NCBI RefSeq assembly: GCF_008727865.1
Contig: NZ_VTWU01000002.1
Location: 186,001-250,000 of the forward strand
Reading direction: 5' to 3'
Length of the DNA stretch: 64,000 nucleotides
DNA from: Hymenobacter busanensis
Lineage (GTDB): Bacteria > Bacteroidota > Bacteroidia > Cytophagales > Hymenobacteraceae
Part shown: positions 19,039-54,700 of the stretch, one piece after another
Position numbering within the stretch: position 1 is the stretch's first letter
Layout: each line of letters starts with the position of its first letter
The notes under the pieces: model-generated
Databases searched by the model: none
Told to the model about the DNA's origin: nothing
The model's input: only the letters and a program-made list of their open reading frames with translations
Position numbers and translations under genes: made by a program

Positions 19039-21144
19039 ATGTTTCGAACTGAATTAGCTATAAAACCCGATCCGCAGCCGCTTTCTGTGGGGGCGCGGGT
19101 CTTCACCATTGGTTCCTGCTTCTCCGAGGTCATCGGCGGGCGGCTGGCGGCGCACAAAGTGGCGACGCAGGTTAACCCCTTCGGTACCGTCTTCAACCCG
19201 CTGGCCGCTGCCAAACTGCTGCGCGCCGCCGCTGGTGAAGACGTGGACTGGCAGCAGCACGTGGTAGAAGCGCGCGGCCGCTGGCAGAGCTACGACCTGC
19301 ACGCCACTTTCGGCGCCGACTCGCCGGTGGAGCTGGTACAGCACATCGAGCAAACCGTACAAGCAGCCGCGGACTTTCTACGCACCGCCGATGTAGTGTT
19401 GTGGACGCTGGGTACCGCCTTCAGCTACCGCCTGCGCGACACGGGCGAGCTGGTGAATAACCTGCATAAGCTGCCGGCCGAGCGGTTTGAGAAAGAATTG
19501 CTGAGCGCCGAGGAAATTGTGACGGCCGTGGCCGAAACCCACGCACTGCTGCGCCGCCTGAACCCCAACATCCGACTAGTACTGACGGTGAGCCCCGTGC
19601 GCCACTTGCGCGACACACTGCCGCTGAACGCGGTGAGCAAGTCGGTACTGCGCGTAGCCTGCCACTACCTGAGCGAACTGCTGCCGGCTACTTCGTACTT
19701 CCCGGCCTACGAGCTGTTGCTCGACGATTTGCGCGACTACCGCTTCTACGGGGCCGATATGCTGCACCCCTCGGAGGTGGCGGAAGATTACGTGTGGGAG
19801 AAGTTCATGGGCGCTTATTTCGACGAGGCCTTCCGCGGCTTTGTGTACGAATGGGACGCTATCCAACGCTCATTGGCACACCGGCCGCTACACGAAGGTG
19901 CGCCGGAGCACCGGCATTTCCTGGAGCAGACCGAAGCCCGTTTGCAACGCCTGGCCAACGTAGTGAACGTGCGGCAGGAGTTGCGGGAATTGCACAAACG
20001 CATTGTTGCGCTGCCGCCGCCCAAACCAGCTCCGGCAGTCGATGAAGACGACGATGAAGAGCGCATCGACATCGGGGAAGGCTCGGCACCGGCGCCGGCT
20101 CGACGCCTGGAGCCCGTCGTTACGCCCGTAGTGGAAGCGGAAGCCCTGGAAGAAGAGCGGGAGCAGGAAGCGGAAGCCGTAGAGGCCGAGGAAGCCCGCA
20201 TCGACGAGGACCACGACTACTTCAGCATGGTGGAAGGAGCGTCGTTGGACGAAACAACGGATCAGGAACAGGCCGAAGGCACCGCTCCCAAACGGCGGAA
20301 ACGCAAGCGTGGCGGCCGCAAACACAAGAAAGGCAACCGCAATGCGGCCGAAGGCGCTGCGTCCGAAGCAGGAGAAGCCGAAACTGTGGCAGCGGTTCCG
20401 GTGGATGCGGTACCTGTGGACGTAATTTCGGTTGAGCTTGCTCCAGTCGAGCCAGTTGAGTCGCCGGCCGCTTCCGATGGGGCGCATGAGCAGGCGGCAA
20501 CGTCGAAATCAAGCCGCTCGCGCCGCGGACGACGCGGCAAGCACGCTCCCGAGGCGGCGAAAACGCCGGAAGCGTTGTCGGCCGAAGCGGCAGCCCCGCT
20601 AGCAGAACCATCGGCTGCGGTACCGCAACAGGAAACGGCGTCGGAAGCCACGCCGGAAATGCCAGGCGCGCCTTCGGAATCGGCAGAAGCTGCGCCCGCG
20701 AAATCAGCGCGGACGTCGAACCGCAAACCGGCCCGCAAGCCGGTACCGGCACGTCCGCGGCCTATTCGGCAGGCTACGGCTGGGCTTACGGCCACGCCTT
20801 CGGTGGCGGAACCAGCACCGGCACCGGAGACTCCGGCAGCAGGTGAGCCTACGGGGGCAGCAGATGCTGCCGGAACACCTGCGCCGCGTCGGCGACCGGC
20901 GCCGCGCCGCAAGGCGGCGGTTTCGGCCGCTGCTGAAGCAGCTGCTTCAGTTTTGGCACCTACACCTCCAGTTCCGGCACCTGCGGTGGAAACGCCCGCA
21001 ACGCCGGAACCGGCCCGGCGACCAGCCCGAGCGCCACGCCGCAAGCCCGATACACCAGCCGCCGATGCCGCGCCCGCATCAACTGCGCCGAAACGACCGA
21101 CTCGTGCGCCGCGCCGCAAGCCCGGCGCTTCGGAAGCCTCCTAA
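19039..21144 (+). CDS. GSCFA domain protein with long charged, Ala/Pro-rich tail
   Basis: This is a 701-residue protein. Residues about 1-310 form a GSCFA domain, with [15 protein letters not shown] near the N-terminus and a [15 protein letters not shown] segment, resembling the catalytic blocks of SGNH/GDSL hydrolases. The rest is unlike a folded enzyme. An acidic stretch (about 330-420) is followed by a basic patch ([18 protein letters not shown], about 417-434), then about 260 residues of Ala/Pro/Glu with repeated RRGRRGK and APRRKP motifs. Ordinary GSCFA proteins end near residue 320. ATG at 19039 starts the family N-terminus; an earlier in-frame start has no support. The GSCFA function is unknown, and the tail suggests nucleic-acid or acidic-surface binding (inference). 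Confidence 0.88.
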
Positions 21145-26946: not shown

Positions 26947-27510
26947 CTATACTTCTTCGAGCAGGCCCAGAATCAGGAGCACCACGCCGATGATGGCCAA
27001 GATGTAGCCCAGCAGGCCAATCACGCCGCCGAAGATGCCCAGCAGTACGCCGGCAATCAGCAGAATCAGGCCCAGCTTCACGTAGTGGTTCAGGGCTTGC
27101 GCATCCGAAGCCGATGCCGCGTTGTGGTGCTGGCGGATTTGCGCTTTAGCAGCCAGCTTGTCGGCTTTTTTCAGCACGTTGTTGAGGGCCAGCTTTTGCA
27201 CCACGTTCAGCTTCCGGGCGGGTGCGGGCGCTTCCACTTTGGCGGCGGATGCCGTGCTGGCGGTAGCGGGTGTAGCGGCCGCCACCGGAGCGGCTGGAGC
27301 CGTGGCTACGGGCGCTTCGGCTGCTACCGGAGCGGGCGTTTCGGCGGGGGCCTGAGCGGGCTGCTGCACAGCTACCGAGCGGTGAACATCGCCGTGGTAG
27401 GGGCTGGTCTTGGGCAGCATTGCGTACTCGCTGCGGCCGCAGCCCGACAGCGCCGCGGCAATTACCGCAGCACCTGCGAGTTTGTTGAGCAGTTTGGCAA
27501 CGTGCTTCAT
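26947..27510 (-). CDS. lipoprotein-like protein with two C-terminal membrane helices
   Basis: This 187-residue protein has a lipoprotein signal (AALSGC, Cys 24), a Pro/Ala/Val-rich linker (about 50-95), a Lys-rich segment (LNVVQKLALNNVLKKADKLAAK) and a hydrophobic C-terminus with two helices rich in Gly, Leu and Ile. No TM2 signature is present. The layout and the sequence just after the lipid Cys (C-G-R-S-E-Y against C-S-K-E-S-Y) resemble the convergent TM2 protein, so the two may be diverged relatives or partners. No named family is recognised. Confidence 0.8.
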   Translation of the reverse strand: MKHVAKLLNKLAGAAVIAAALSGCGRSEYAMLPKTSPYHGDVHRSVAVQQPAQAPAETPAPVAAEAPVATAPAAPVAAATPATASTASAAKVEAPAPARKLNVVQKLALNNVLKKADKLAAKAQIRQHHNAASASDAQALNHYVKLGLILLIAGVLLGIFGGVIGLLGYILAIIGVVLLILGLLEEV

Positions 27511-35981: not shown

Positions 35982-37172
35982 TTGCCTGATATCCTTTACC
36001 TGACCACGTCCGACGCATTAGCCGACGCCGTGGCCGCGCTGCGTAGCGCCCCGCGCATCGCCATCGACCTCGAATTTGACGACATGCGCCACCGCTACGG
36101 GCGCAACTTGGCGCTGATTCAGGTATTCGACGGCCAGCGCGTGTACCTGATTGACCCGCTGCCGCTGCCCAACCCCGCGCAGGAGCTGCAGCCCCTGTGG
36201 GACGTGCTGCAAGACCCCGCCGTGGAGAAAATCTTCCACAGCTGCCGCTCCGACATCTTGCTGCTCGACGAGCTGTACGGCGTGCACGTGCGCCACATCA
36301 CCGATACCAGCGTGCAATACCAGCTGCTGGGCGAGGCCGACAACAACATTTCCCTCGGCCGCCTTGTGCAGCAGGAGCTGGGCCTGGAACTGGACAAAGG
36401 CGAGCAAAAATCGAATTGGCTGAAGCGCCCCCTCTCCGAGGCGCAACTGGAGTACGCCGCCAACGACGTTATCTATCTGTTTGAGCTGGCCGAGCGCCTC
36501 ACTGCTCGGCTGGAATCGTTGGGCCGGGGCCAGTGGGCCGCCGAAGAAAGCGCCGCCCTCGAAGACGTGCGCTACCAGCGCGACGACCGGCCGTGGATGA
36601 AAATTGCGGGCCGCTACCGCATCAGCCACGACGAGATGCCGCTGTTCCGCGACCTGTATCAGCTGCGCGAAGAAGTGGCCAGAATCATCGACCGGCCGCC
36701 CTACATGGTGTTTGCCAACGACCGCCTCGCCGAGCTGGTGCGCGACACGCCCAACGGCACCAACGCCTGGCGCAACGCCCGCGGCCTGCACCCCGAACTC
36801 AAGCGCAGCCCCTACTTGGAGCGTCTCACGGCCATGTCGCCGGGCCAGTACCAGCCCGCCCCCGACCCGCCTACCCCCTACCAGGAGCGCCGCTTCCCGT
36901 CGCGCCGCCGCCTCACCGGCGCCGCCGCCGCCCGCGCCGACCAGCGCGAGCAGCAGCTGATGGCCCTCAAAACCCAATTGGCCGACAATTTCAACGGCTA
37001 CGTGGCCAACCTCGTACTGTCGAACCGCCTCATCGGCGAGATTGTGGAGCAAGGCGCCGCCGAAGCCCTGCGCCCGTGGCAGCAGGAGCTATTGCGCGAA
37101 GCCAGCCGCCGCCAGGGTGTCGATTTTGAAGAATTGGCCCGCCCACTCGACGTTTCCGGCAGCCGGCGCTAA
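35982..37172 (+). CDS. rnd: ribonuclease D
   Basis: This 396-residue 3'-5' exoribonuclease is used in tRNA and structured RNA processing. The DEDDy motifs are visible: Exo I IAIDLEFD (Asp and Glu), Exo II HSCRSDILLLDELYG and Exo III YAANDVIYLFEL (Tyr and Asp). HRDC-like helical domains follow (DLYQLREEVARIIDRPPYMVFAND). The C-terminal region has an Arg-rich linker (about 297-320). No ATG fits; TTG at 35982 starts LPDILYLTTSDAL, and a promoter-like box lies 47 nt upstream. It converges on aceA. Confidence 0.9.
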   Translation: MPDILYLTTSDALADAVAALRSAPRIAIDLEFDDMRHRYGRNLALIQVFDGQRVYLIDPLPLPNPAQELQPLWDVLQDPAVEKIFHSCRSDILLLDELYGVHVRHITDTSVQYQLLGEADNNISLGRLVQQELGLELDKGEQKSNWLKRPLSEAQLEYAANDVIYLFELAERLTARLESLGRGQWAAEESAALEDVRYQRDDRPWMKIAGRYRISHDEMPLFRDLYQLREEVARIIDRPPYMVFANDRLAELVRDTPNGTNAWRNARGLHPELKRSPYLERLTAMSPGQYQPAPDPPTPYQERRFPSRRRLTGAAAARADQREQQLMALKTQLADNFNGYVANLVLSNRLIGEIVEQGAAEALRPWQQELLREASRRQGVDFEELARPLDVSGSRR

Positions 37173-45313: not shown

Positions 45314-45640
45314 ATGACCATCGAAGAAGCCCAACAAACCGTCGACCAGTGGATTCAGACCACCGGCGTGCGGTATTTCAACGAGCTAACCAATATGGCC
45401 ATGCTCACCGAGGAAGTGGGCGAAGTGGCCCGCATCATTGCCCGGCAGTATGGCGAGCAGTCCTTTAAGCCTTCGGACCGCGACAAAGTGCTGGCCGATG
45501 AGTTGGCCGACGTATTGTTTGTGGTGATTTGCCTGGCTAACCAAACCGGCGTGAACCTGACCGAGGCCCTGCAGCGCAACTTGGAGAAGAAAACCCAGCG
45601 CGACGCCATCCGGCACCAGCAAAACGAGAAATTGCGGTAG
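45314..45640 (+). CDS. MazG-like nucleotide pyrophosphohydrolase
   Basis: This 108-residue all-alpha protein has EEVGEVAR and a DELADVL motif, the Mg-binding E-ExxE and ExxD pattern of MazG/dUTPase-like hydrolases. It is the short one-domain form. Members cleave non-canonical or excess NTPs to NMP and PPi. It follows dtd by 13 bp. The exact substrate cannot be told from the sequence. Confidence 0.9.
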   Translation: MTIEEAQQTVDQWIQTTGVRYFNELTNMAMLTEEVGEVARIIARQYGEQSFKPSDRDKVLADELADVLFVVICLANQTGVNLTEALQRNLEKKTQRDAIRHQQNEKLR

Positions 45641-45676: not shown

Positions 45677-45987
45677 CCTGCAAACCGGAATAGCAAACCC
45701 GGGCCTCGTACACCATTCCCCTGCGCGGGAATGGCAAACCGGAGCAGCCGAATGTGAAATCGGAACACCGGAATCCCATTCCGCCGCAGCCGAACGCCGT
45801 TCGGCTACAGCGGAGGGCCCTCCGCTACAGCCGAACGTGAAACCGGTGCAGCCGAATGGCATTCGGCTGCACCGGTTTCACGTTCGGCTGCACAGGAATG
45901 AGGTTTGGCTGCTACGGTTTGCCATTCCGCTGCACAGGAGGGGCCTCAGCTACAACGGAGGCCCCTCCGCTGCACGGGAGGGGCCCC
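45677..45987. repeat. tandem modular repeat: about 14 units of 19-23 bp with internal and inter-unit palindromes
   Basis: The 367-bp gap between the MazG-like gene and the ComB-type gene is largely made of units that start with a GCTGCA/GCTACA/GCCGCA-like 6-mer, followed by two half-sites. The half-sites come from a small set of words: GGAATG, CGAACG or CGAATG, GGAGGG and GGTTT, each also present as its reverse complement (CATTCC, CGTTCG, CCCTCC, AAACC). Clear units begin at 45741, 45762, 45783, 45804, 45824, 45846, 45866, 45887, 45908, 45929, 45949 and 45969. A 31-bp perfect inverted repeat (45828-45858 with 45860-45890, 1-nt spacer) spans three units, and an 18-bp perfect palindrome AGCGGAGGGCCCTCCGCT lies inside another (45809-45826). 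A 133-codon plus-strand frame crosses it but has no start context. Confidence 0.85.
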
Positions 45988-46007: not shown

Positions 46008-46733
46008 CTAGCCGGCTGCTACCAGCCGGTCGTCCTGCCACACGGGTAGCGTGGTGGGATACTCGTCGAGGCGCAGACAGAAATCAAAGTCTTTGTTGGC
46101 TTCGAGCGAATTCAGGCGCCGCACGTGCGACGACTGCAGCAGGTAGGCATGTAAATCGGGTCGGGCTTGCTGCCACAGGTGCAGCGCGGCCAGGGTATCG
46201 TCGGAGGACGTTACATCGAAGGTAGCGGCCAGGCGCTCGGCCAGGGCCCCACCGAATACGGTGTCTTCGAGGCAAAACTTGCCTTTCCAGCCGGCGCACA
46301 CCACCACCACGTCTTTCTGCTGGGCCTGGGCAAAATCGGCCACGGCCTGCAGGTTCAGGAACGCGCCCACCACCACGGCATCGGCTGCCAAGGAGCGGCG
46401 CAGGGCCAGCGTGCCGTTGGTGGTGCTGATGGCCACGGCCCGGCCACGCACCGGCAGCCTGCCGCCCGGAAGGTAGCCGAAGGGCGAATTCCCGAGGTCG
46501 AAGCCCTCGGCGGCGCGGCCGTCGCGCTCGGCGGCGGTCAGGCAGCCGTGCTGCTGGCCCAGGGCGGCGCATTCGGCCAACTCGGCCACCGGAAATACGT
46601 GCGTCACGCCGTTGGCCAGCGCCGTAACGATGCTGGAGGTGGCGCGCAGAATATCAACCACCACGGCCACCTTGCCGCGCAGGTCGTAGAGCGGCAGCAG
46701 CTCGGGCGAGAAACAGATATCGACGGAGGGCAT
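46008..46733 (-). CDS. 2-phosphosulfolactate phosphatase (ComB family)
   Basis: This 241-residue ComB family protein shows VVVDILRATSSIVTAL (Mg and phosphate site), GNSPFGY, STTNGTLALRR and VCAGWKGKFCLEDTV, all conserved blocks. The family hydrolyses 2-phosphosulfolactate to sulfolactate. Coenzyme M is not expected here, so the enzyme may serve sulfonate metabolism such as precursors of Bacteroidota sulfonolipids. That link is an inference. No neighbouring sulfonate gene is visible. It stands alone between the repeat block and a REP-like element. Confidence 0.9.
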   Translation of the reverse strand: MPSVDICFSPELLPLYDLRGKVAVVVDILRATSSIVTALANGVTHVFPVAELAECAALGQQHGCLTAAERDGRAAEGFDLGNSPFGYLPGGRLPVRGRAVAISTTNGTLALRRSLAADAVVVGAFLNLQAVADFAQAQQKDVVVVCAGWKGKFCLEDTVFGGALAERLAATFDVTSSDDTLAALHLWQQARPDLHAYLLQSSHVRRLNSLEANKDFDFCLRLDEYPTTLPVWQDDRLVAAG

Positions 46734-46754: not shown

Positions 46755-46866
46755 CGTCTGTCATCCTGAGGCGCAGCCGAAGGACCTTTTCACCACTGAA
46801 CGGCCATCGAAACAACGACTCGTTCGGCAAGCATAAGGTCCTTCGCTGCGCTCAGGATGACAGACG
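46755..46866. repeat. REP/MITE-like inverted repeat element
   Basis: The left arm (46755-46788, beginning CGTCTGTCATCCTGAG) and the right arm (46835-46866, ending CTCAGGATGACAGACG) are complementary over about 32 bp with two single-base bulges. A 46-bp middle separates them. The TCATCCTGAG...GAAGGACCTT core resembles an intergenic repeat that I recall as widespread in this group. It lies between two genes on the minus strand. Confidence 0.8.
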
Positions 46867-51728: not shown

Positions 51729-54700
51729 CTATTGTTTCACGAAGCGGCGGGTCAGGCTCAGGCCGTTGGCGCCCTGAACTTTCACGTTGTATACCCCGGC
51801 CGGCAGGCGGCGCAGGTCCAGCGTCGTACGCAGGGTGCTGTCGAGCGCCTGGGTCATCAGCAGGGCGCCGGTGGTCGAGTACACCTGCACCGTAGCCTGC
51901 TGGGCCGAGGCCTGCAGCGTCACGTTCAGGTAGTCGGCCGCCGGGCTGGGGTACAGCGCCAGTTCCACAGTGGCATTGCTGGCCCCGAAGCGCACGGTGC
52001 GGATTTCCGAAGCGGTAGCCGTGCCGTCGAAGTCCACCTGCACGAGGCGGTAGTACACCGTGGCGGCCGTGCGGGCGGCATTGGCGTCGGTGTAGGCGTA
52101 TTGCTGCTTGGCGCTGGTGCTGCCGTGGCCTTCCACCGAGCCCACCTTCTCGAAGGTCTTGCCGTCGATGGAGCGCTCTACGTCGAAGTGGTCGTTGTTT
52201 TTCTCCGAAGCGGTTTCCCAGGTCAGCAGCGCGTCGGCCGACTTGGCTTTGGCTTCAAAGCTCGTCAGCTCTACCGGCAGGGGCTGGTTGAGACCCACGG
52301 CGGCATTGCCCGAAAACTCCGAGGTATTGCCTACTGCCGTACCGTTGACCAACGTACCGCTCAGCAAAGTGGCCGTGGCCGTGATGCGGGCGTTGGCGGC
52401 CGTCAGCGCGGCGCGCTGGGTAGAATTAAGGCTGCTGATCGGGATGATGAAGGCGTAGCGGTTCACGCCGGACTCCGTGCCCTGGTTCAGGCCGTTGATC
52501 AGGCCGCTGTAGCCCCAGGTGCGGGTGTCCACGTCCTGGGTCGAGAGGCCTTCCGTGCGGGCGGTCAGGTACGTACGGCCTTCACCGAAAGCGGCCGTGG
52601 TGGCGTCTGACACGAAGAACTCCAGCAAGGCACCGGCCGGGGCAAAGCCCGTAATTTCCAGGTTGCCGGTCGTCGTGTTGGTGATTACCGACTGCGTGAT
52701 GATAGGGAAGTTCAGGATGCCGTTGGCACCCGAGTCACCGTCCCCGTTGTCGTTTACAGTCGTGCCGTCACCGTTGGGGCTGGCCGCGCTGGCCAAGTCA
52801 ATGCCGAGGCCGGTGGCGGCGCCGTTCAGGAAAATCGAGTTCTGCGTGAAGCGGTTGCCCGAGGTACCGGTACCGGCGGCAATACCGGCGGCGCTGTTGT
52901 TGTTGATGGTGTTGCCGCTGATCAGGTTGTTGGTGCCCAGCTGGATGCTGATGCCCGAATCGTTGGCGGTGCCGCCAGTGCCGTTGTTGTTGATGGTGTT
53001 GCCGCTGATGTTGTTGGTGCTGTTGGCACCCGCCCCCGACAGCTCAATGCCGTAGCCGGCGTTGTTGCTGATGAAGTTGTTGGTAACCGTGTTGCCGGAG
53101 GCATTCTGCAGTACCACGCCTTCGGCATCGGTGGCGGCAATACCGGCTGCCGCCACCGTGGCCCGACCGGTACGCAGCACGTTAGCCGTAACGGTTACGC
53201 CCGTGGCGCCACCCGTGAGCAGCACGCCCGCCGTGGCGTTATTGAGCGTCGTAACGTCGGTGATGGTGGTGCCCGTGGCTGCCGCGCCGCTCACCGTTAC
53301 GCCTGCACCCTGCGCCAATACCGCGCCGCTGGTGGCCGTGCTGTTGCCCACGGCGCTGCTCAGGCCGAGAGAGGCAAGGCGCGTGCTGGCACCCGTCACA
53401 AACAGACCGGCGTTGTTGTTGAAGTTCACAATCACCTCCGGATCGGTCGTGGTAGCGTCCGAAGCGGCCGGGCCGTCACCGGTCAGGGCCGTTTGCGTCG
53501 AGCCGTCGATGGTGGTTTGGCCGTCGATGATGGAGGGCAAGGCGCTGCTGAGCGTGATGGTAAAGGCTTTGGTGGCGGCGCTGTAGCCGGCCGGAGCCGT
53601 CAGGCCAGTGCGCAAGCCGGCCAGCACGTCCGAGGTGCGGCCGTCGTTCATCATAAAGATGGCCGACTCGATGCCCGCGGCGGGATTGACGCCCGTGGGC
53701 GTGCCGTTGTTGTTGAACTGCTCCTGATTCAGGTTGGTGTTCGGCAGGGCGTTGGCGTTGGTAATGAACTGGCGCAACGAGCCTTGGCCGGTGTCGTTGG
53801 TATTCACCACGGCATCGAAGTTGAAGCCGAAGTTCACGTTTGTAGCAGCGGCTACTACCGTCGGAATCGAAACCGTGCTGATGGACTGCGGCAGTTTGTT
53901 ACCCGCCGTCAGGGCCGACAGCAACTGGCTGCCCGAGTTGGCTGCGGCGTCCTCCTTGGTGGGGTCTACCCCGCCCACGTAGTTCGTCACGCCCTTCACG
54001 TACGTCTGCACCGGCACTACACCGCTGGCCGCGCTGTTGCGCACCGACGTTACGGTGGAATTAACCACGCGCACCGAGTAGTTGCCGCTCAGCACGAGCG
54101 GGAAGGTGTACGCCCCGTTGGTGCCCGACGAGATGGTGTTGACGATTGCACCCGATTCGGTGTCGTACAGCTCCACGGTGGCTCCGCTGCGGCCGATGGC
54201 GTTGTTGGCAAAGCCGCTGGCTTGCGCCGCCGTGTTGGCGGCGGCAAAGTCGCGGCCGGCACCACCGCCGTAGTTCACGTCGTCGAAGATGATGCCCGAA
54301 ATGGTGGTGCTGTTCTCCACCGAAATCGAGTAGGTAGCAGCCTCGCTCAGCTCGCCGGTGTTGTCGCGGCTGCTGTAGAGGAATTCGGCCGTGCCCACGT
54401 AGCCCGAAACCGGGGTAAACTTGATGCGGCTGGCGTCGGCGAGGGAAATTTCCTGGCCGTTGCGCAGCGCCGCGCCGTCGAGCGTGAGCGTGCCCTGCGT
54501 GGTGGGCGAGGTAATGGTCTGGATGTAGAACGAGCTAACCGAGCCGGGCGCCGTGTCGGAGCCGGTGAGGGCCGGAATGGTGGTGGCCGAAGCTTGGTTC
54601 GAGACGCGGAAGGTCTTGGCGTCGGCTACGGGCAGCACGTTCACGGTGCAGTCGTTGCCGTCGTTTTTGGCCGTGGCCACGGCGGCGTTGCTCACACTCA

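Follow-up and report, generated by a model that had tools for sequence, protein, structure and literature searches.

A family of self-complementary arrays with a 21-bp period in Hymenobacter-like bacteria, and an associated small-protein gene

Phased arrays of about 21–22 bp units, next to the gene of the protein that binds them, are known as the iterons of replication initiators, and the Tas protein of TIGR-Tas systems carries a Nop domain. Palindromic repeats beside a gene are a feature of REP/RAYT pairs, for which PMC3686654 describes dispersed copies dependent on a cognate gene, a number of repeat classes, and repeats that outlast the loss of the gene. In ParR-parC, the plasmid centromere of ParMRC systems, according to PMC9426499, tandem binding sites lie upstream of a gene and cognate specificity separates relatives, while the sequence and spacing of the repeats vary between families (the repeats are 20 bp in pSK41).

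The array considered here, in a window of 64,000 nucleotides to which unprefixed coordinates refer, is part of a family of self-complementary, 21-bp-period arrays in a Hymenobacter-like bacterial family. The family includes a cassette of array and small-protein gene, which is well supported, and it has dyad-symmetric units, a spacing held at 21 bp and several sequence dialects. The window array and its surroundings are as follows.

45314 to 45640, forward strand: gene for a MazG-type nucleotide pyrophosphohydrolase (PF03819, E 4.6e-16).
45677 to 45987, unstranded: the window array, a self-complementary, 21-bp-phased, gene-less satellite of about 14 units (periodicity, weight matrix and self-complementarity).
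45727 to 45929, unstranded: core units, ten detected 15-bp near-palindromes (weight-matrix scan).
45828 to 45858, forward strand: left arm of a perfect 31-bp inverted repeat (self-complementarity), with a 1-nt spacer at 45859.
45860 to 45890, reverse strand: right arm of the same perfect 31-bp inverted repeat (self-complementarity).
45931 to 45987, unstranded: GC-rich array end, GGAGGnnCCTCC-type units with a spacing of about 20 bp.
46008 to 46733, reverse strand: convergent gene of the 2-phosphosulfolactate phosphatase family (ComB-like; PF04029, E 3.8e-73).

Over the 311 bp from 45677 to 45987 the identity at lag 21 is 0.503 (z 9.5), against a mean of 0.268 (sd 0.025) and a maximum of 0.355 in 1000 dinucleotide-preserving shuffles, and it is 0.385 at lag 20 and 0.242 at lag 22. 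The self-complementary array of about 21-bp period that a sequence-only reading had placed here is thereby confirmed. When the 64 kb are scanned at lag 21 in 50-bp steps, the best four positions overlap the array (0.51, 0.49, 0.49 and 0.44), and the top value outside it is 0.43, near 20801. The unit is a near-palindrome of about 15 bp, consensus CSGWWTGSCAWWCSG, with a linker of about 6 bp that is often palindromic too. A weight matrix built from ten arrays, which gives the symmetric 15-bp core CSGWWTGSCAWWCSG, detects 12 core units in the window array, ten of them starting at 45727, 45748, 45769, 45790, 45810, 45831, 45852, 45873, 45894 and 45915 and two further ones at 45686 and 45955, with intervals of 41, 21, 21, 21, 20, 21, 21, 21, 21, 21 and 40 bp. 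If weak units are counted as well, which occur in both double gaps and at the right end, the total comes to about 14, the number originally proposed. The inverted repeat of 31 bp with a 1-nt spacer, claimed for 45828–45890, is likewise real, its arms being perfectly complementary, while the longest self-complementary word among 30 shuffles is 12. The nearly fixed 6-mer of the earlier description is there, as the linker, but looser than was thought: on the forward strand GCTGCA occurs four times, GCTACA three times, GCCGCA once and TGCAGC once.

Tandem Repeats Finder splits the window array into four fragments; it also reports short repeats at 27309–27361 (period 24), 36888–36932 (period 20) and 52979–53019 (period 21). 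The view that the block is neither a CRISPR, nor a normal terminator, nor a simple tandem repeat holds: unique spacers are lacking, 45677–45987 contains no terminator-like site (a GC hairpin with a T run), and the array has no match in Rfam.

The array starts 36 bp past the stop codon of the MazG-type gene, whose closest named relatives are in Solirubrum puertoriconensis (97% identity) and Hymenobacter sp. BT18 (95%). At the MazG-comB junction an array is present in three of eight genus members and missing in the other five, which have other inverted-repeat-like sequence there, as judged by eye. Since five of the eight are without an array at the locus, nothing shows selection on the window copy, which may be no more than a satellite or a relic. 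Just upstream of the ComB-like gene, at 46760–46862, there is an imperfect palindrome of about 100 bp (GTCATCCTGAGGCGCAGCCGAAGGACCTT ... AAGGTCCTTCGCTGCGCTCAGGATGAC), single-copy in the window. A similar GTCATCC...AAGGACC sequence occurs at the MazG-comB junction of G201 (L203); the palindrome looks like a dispersed repeat with no relation to the array.

G000, the genome of the window (G-numbers denote genomes and C-numbers contigs), has a second array with the same words at C7:343373–343649. It lies directly upstream of an orphan gene, at C7:343767–344153, for a 128-aa protein (MPRKPR...), the two together making a cassette at C7:343373–344153, and two is the total for this genome by both array queries and by R1, a 78-position sequence model of the window dialect. 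R1 has matches at E 0.001 in 13 of 204 family genomes, and real arrays of the window dialect, 13 of them, are found in nine genomes (G000, G015, G026, G031, G106, G110, G126, G197 and G198). The same words and spacing thus recur at another locus in the genome and, as dialect arrays, in nine genomes of the family; a lack of any such locus would have told against the first description. Matches of R1 in G052, G064, G087 and G132 and at one G198 place were dropped, no array of the window-dialect kind being visible in the sequence; likewise, among nine genomes matched by an array query, G199, G203 and G141 proved on viewing the sequence to have chance or coding matches. The weak R1 match in G064:C2 (L142, about 1950–2150) is to a stretch of 21-bp period with CCCGAAGCCCTCCCCGGCGCA-like sequence, and might represent a further dialect or else a heptad repeat of coding sequence. 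Among 390 genomes of the order R1 gave six matches, every one an already known family member, and array DNA had no match in 72,556 plasmid and 50,697 phage records.

The orphan gene is in two of 60 sampled family genomes at E 1e-5, and arrays of G026, G031, G106 and G126 are also upstream of an MPRKPR-type gene. A profile of five members has relatives in 12 of 204 family genomes, and a wider one of 16 members finds 20 homologous reading frames in 14 of the 204; the protein is 119–154 aa long. All 18 of the near-full-length relatives in the 204 genomes have an array upstream, five of the 18 being those by which the gene family was defined. (Two fragments, in G056 and G109, are within the count of 20 and outside the 18; the 18 include G016a, which has an in-frame stop, and G106b, whose contig extends just 206 bp upstream.) When up to 550 bp ahead of the gene are considered, lag 21 ranks first of lags 10–40 for 18 of the 20, and for 13 of 15 when the five founders, chosen for having arrays, are set aside. 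The exceptions are the G056 fragment and G108a, where lag 21 ranks second beside a 14-bp minisatellite and the array alone peaks at 21; for the G109 fragment it ranks first, weakly (z 3.4). Downstream controls have it first in two of 20 (G107b, z 5.8; G124, z 3.0). In 450 random segments the ten top values fell on known arrays and the next was 4.9, a value not exceeded by G107c (z 4.8), whose period is the weakest among the cassettes. The 550 bp downstream of one cassette gene (L172, G107:C669), with lag 21 at rank 1 and z 5.8, differ in this from nearly all other cassettes, and in L173 (G108:C132) the cassette array is closely preceded by a long CCCAAAACCCAACA-type minisatellite, about 300–480 bp upstream of the gene. 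In 14 of the 18 cassettes a promoter-like TAnnTTT lies no more than 90 bp ahead of the start codon, and in 13 it is at −39 to −47 (raw counts without a chance control); its place between array and gene puts the array upstream of the likely promoter.

The cassette protein has at most weak, scattered matches in Pfam, NCBIfam, PHROGs, PADLOC and PDB sequences, the best being to PADLOC PDC-M09B for one of 16 members (E 0.004). No DNA-binding domain was matched in Pfam, NCBIfam, PHROGs or PDB sequences, and no transposase for any of the 16 proteins up to E 0.1 in Pfam, PHROGs or NCBIfam. The protein of subfamily I had no match in plasmid and phage records, nor had those of subfamilies II and III in plasmid records; three queries found no relatives in viral contigs. 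An origin from plasmid or phage was accordingly rejected, array DNA and protein alike being unmatched in these records. In 296 genomes of the phylum, a sample with few family members, the protein profile at E 1e-5 found its own genome only. Four array-bearing genomes (G197, G198, G015 and G110) have no homologue of the cassette gene at E 0.01 or better.

Symmetry of the arrays was assessed by local alignment of each to its own reverse complement, the null being permutation of columns within the 21-bp unit. All 18 cassette arrays are self-complementary (z 3.3–16.3), as are all ten satellites (z 5.7–16.2, the window array having 16.2). This test replaced a simpler fixed-phase dyad statistic after the latter's result was known: p was below 0.05 for 8 of the 18 cassette arrays, 6 of the 10 satellites and 1 of 7 in-gene arrays, and the window array was not significant (z −0.1). 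The fixed-phase statistic falls short because 20-bp units upset the phase. Seven linker stretches of an outer-membrane-type gene serve as a comparison. Those of G055, G126, G110 and G030 are self-complementary and those of G077, G016 and G075 are not (z −0.6 to 0.1; G077 −0.2, G016 −0.6). The G077 and G016 linkers are heptad-coding repeats with a strong lag-21 signal, while that of G075 is weakly periodic. As G077 and G016 are periodic yet not self-complementary, the symmetry is not produced by the period alone.

Among 155 neighbouring detected units in 14 arrays the spacing is 21 in 121, 20 in 20 and 22 in 2, and 16 of the 20 spacings of 20 bp are beside a GC-rich unit. Such units recur toward at least one end in 12 of the 13 window-dialect arrays, that of G126 being without any. 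Within the unit dyads 60–65% of pairs are complementary. An RNA hairpin under selection is expected to have more G-T than A-C mismatches; on the gene strand of six cassette arrays there are 32 G-T and 30 A-C, and in eight satellites 48 and 46. The equal frequency of the two favours duplex DNA over RNA hairpins. Taken with the spacing and the GC-rich ends, this balance is more in keeping with dimer sites lined up along one face of the duplex than with RNA hairpins or coding repeats.

The words of the arrays are related within the MPRKPR subfamily and unrelated between subfamilies (examples are GATGTTGGCACATCCGGCGTT in G107a, where the array is a nearly perfect recent amplification, GGAAACGGCGTTTCC in G016b and CAAAGGCTTGAG in G055b). 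Across 18 cassettes protein and array similarity are correlated (Mantel r 0.77, p 0.0002), to which co-inheritance of neighbours would contribute. For the 13 arrays of the window dialect, similarity within a genome is 0.817 against 0.727 when permuted (p 0.0002; five pairs, from G000, G026 and G031). Similarity within a locus is 0.712 against 0.727 (p 0.77) if all gene-upstream arrays are taken as one locus, and somewhat raised, 0.760 against 0.726 (p 0.11), if only positions of conserved context are. The window array has a similarity of 0.786 to its own cassette array, and of 0.748 and 0.742 to the G197 and G198 arrays of the same locus, though a G026 array, at 0.81, resembles it a little more than its own cassette array does (0.79). 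Resemblance within a genome is not general. The G106 satellites have similarities of 0.75 and 0.77 to casB against 0.67 and 0.68 to casA, and the in-gene array of G055 one of 0.73 to casA against 0.52 to casB, yet the latter is marginally nearer to the G126 cassette (0.75) than to its own casA, and the in-gene arrays of G126 and G110 are nearer to arrays of other genomes than to their own.

One to four arrays were detected per genome. Apart from the MazG-comB junction, satellites lie between MFS and PDDEXK genes in G031, within an RND system of G106, where the HlyD-type gene meets the AcrB-type gene (C59), and between a histidine kinase and a LytTR regulator, also in G106 (C88), the same place as in G110. 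Other dialects were predicted to have satellites of their own; with the casA array of G055 as query in 11 genomes, satellites were recovered in G055 (C22) and, twice, in G106 (C59 and C88). Satellites often adjoin regulatory or transport genes, such as a sigma-54 regulator, a histidine kinase-LytTR junction or an MFS gene (L125 in G026, L131 in G031, L139 in G110, L198 in G106:C88). The G055 array at C22 is in frame inside a 609-aa outer-membrane-type protein. The linker of this protein (L196:1912–3741, G055:C22, with orthologues L208–L217), whose gene adjoins one for an ECF-type sigma factor, has in-frame repeats of 21 or 42 bp with differing words in G055, G126, G077, G016, G110 and G030, self-complementary in part only.

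What had been noticed in the window was right and understated, the partner gene and the dialects being the main point beyond it; its interpretation is partly supported. Of the three functions offered, a protein-binding array, a recombination target and a domesticated mobile repeat, the first is best supported by the spacing held at 21, the dyad-symmetric units and the equal G-T and A-C mismatches, with binding itself a deduction from these; nothing pointing to the second came up in analyses directed at other questions. The reading preferred here, with a probability of roughly 0.47, is that the units are helically phased sites bound by a dimeric protein, probably that of the cassette, which would act in trans, with the window copy as a gene-less satellite. 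A cassette comprises about 8–14 units just ahead of the likely promoter region of a gene for a small protein of no known family, and the dialects go with the protein subfamily: between subfamilies period, dyad symmetry and position stay and the words differ completely. Each near-palindrome of about 15 bp would bind a protein dimer, and the 21-bp spacing, being two helical turns, would set the dimers on one face of the DNA. The row of dimers could then assemble into a nucleoprotein complex through which the cassette gene is regulated and satellite sites may be marked or regulated. The prime candidate for the binder would be the cassette protein. Confidence in this explanation is slightly reduced because the same-genome grouping rests on five pairs. 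Its weakest point is the four genomes with arrays and no detectable cassette gene, which tell against it; the arrays there may be relics, or be read by a different protein. A further step, possible but doubtful, is that the whole constitutes a private DNA-addressing system: a small uncharacterised protein and the phased palindrome array it recognises, with words rewritten between subfamilies or paralogues, several non-interfering channels per genome, and satellites marking remote sites.

A mobile origin has to be weighed against this. Were the arrays REP-like repeats mobilised in trans by a putative enzyme, copying from cassettes to new sites and merely tolerated at 3′ ends and in protein linkers, then satellites at scattered, unrelated sites (the MazG-comB junction, G031, G106 and in frame in the G055 gene) would be natural, the same-genome grouping in one dialect would be equally expected from recent copying, and a dialect per paralogue would parallel the REP classes per RAYT, as described in PMC3686654. 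The domesticated mobile repeat of the earlier interpretation gains from the same scattered satellites, one of them in frame in a gene, and gives way to the protein-binding array as the better supported. However, REP-like repeats number tens to hundreds whereas one to four arrays were detected per genome, the cassette protein is without a transposase match, there is no transposase among the neighbours put to Pfam, and neither a clean insertion site nor a target duplication has been established; this origin is rather unlikely. Unlikely too is neutral, hairpin-driven satellite DNA, arising by slippage and template switching between palindromes and kept where harmless, with the link to the gene a matter of hitch-hiking. 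Shuffled and inverted words, the recent amplification in G107a and the convergent-gene junction of the window locus, where the five array-less genus members have other inverted-repeat-like sequence by eye, are what it would lead one to expect, but it sits badly with 18 of 18 near-full-length genes keeping an array of the same period in the same place despite unrelated words between subfamilies, with tight spacing despite heavy substitution, and with the GC-rich end units of 12 of 13 dialect arrays.

The remaining two explanations were rejected. A transcribed array of hairpin RNAs, structured or guide-like, with the small protein as partner, is very improbable: though as RNA either strand of the window array has a very stable fold (z −13.7 and −12.0), the same would go for any palindrome array, and though an array beside a small-protein gene resembles the layout of RNA-guided systems, there is no excess of G-T over A-C (32 against 30, gene strand) and no Rfam match at gathering score. 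Moreover, hairpins do not need a strict 21-bp spacing, and in 13 of 18 cassettes the promoter-like motif (a raw count without a chance control) is between array and gene. Barely credible is an origin in coding tandem repeats, 21 bp being seven codons and so a heptapeptide, or in decayed coding sequence of a neighbour. The G055 array is in frame within its 609-aa protein, and the G077 and G016 orthologues have heptad repeats there, but these heptads are not self-complementary and all 28 cassette and satellite arrays are; the frame is lost wherever a unit has 20 bp; and the window array is outside both flanking genes, past their stop codons.

If the preferred reading of phased dimer sites is right, and the cassette protein reads its array, nature would here offer, in compact form, a case of protein-DNA co-evolution with the recognition words replaced wholesale while spacing and symmetry persist. 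There would then be several independent protein-array pairs in one genome, the joint change of specificity of a DNA-binding protein and its whole array would become directly testable, and a source of orthogonal small DNA-binding proteins might be at hand. Should the idea of binding prove mistaken, it would still have to be explained why a 21-bp period is conserved, in unrelated words, ahead of a gene family that is itself uncharacterised. No description of such arrays came up in searches confined to the open-access literature, and the array-gene cassette, a matched pair of DNA array and protein, appears to be undescribed.

Set beside the known systems, the arrays differ from CRISPR in having degenerate near-palindromes with 6-bp linkers and no identical repeats with unique spacers, and there are no cas genes at the window array, flanked by the MazG-type and ComB-like genes, or among the neighbours of other arrays put to Pfam. 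As in the published description of TIGR-Tas, an array of short units is next to a protein gene, but here the units are self-complementary, without unique spacers and without a strand-specific RNA signal, and the 16 cassette proteins have no Pfam match to Nop. Unlike iterons, the arrays are also found far from the gene and in several unrelated dialects, and the small cassette protein has no match to a Rep family. With ParMRC they share tandem units, here putative binding sites, upstream of a gene (18 of 18 near-full-length cassette genes); they differ in being on chromosomal-type contigs without a plasmid match, in their dyad-symmetric units and gene-less satellites, in having no ParM-like neighbour among those put to Pfam, and in a protein without a ribbon-helix-helix match. 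With REP/RAYT (REP-associated tyrosine transposase) they share genomic dispersal of the units and their self-complementarity, the latter seen in 28 of 28 cassette and satellite arrays. The differences are that these are phased tandem arrays of about 8–14 units, with one to four arrays found per genome and two in G000 against tens to over a thousand REP copies, and that the cognate RAYT is a Y1/HUH tyrosine transposase, while the 16 cassette proteins are without a transposase match. For each of REP/RAYT and ParR-parC one defining test came out negative, and the cassette is therefore filed under neither, though it is to these two kinds of pair that its logic is closest.
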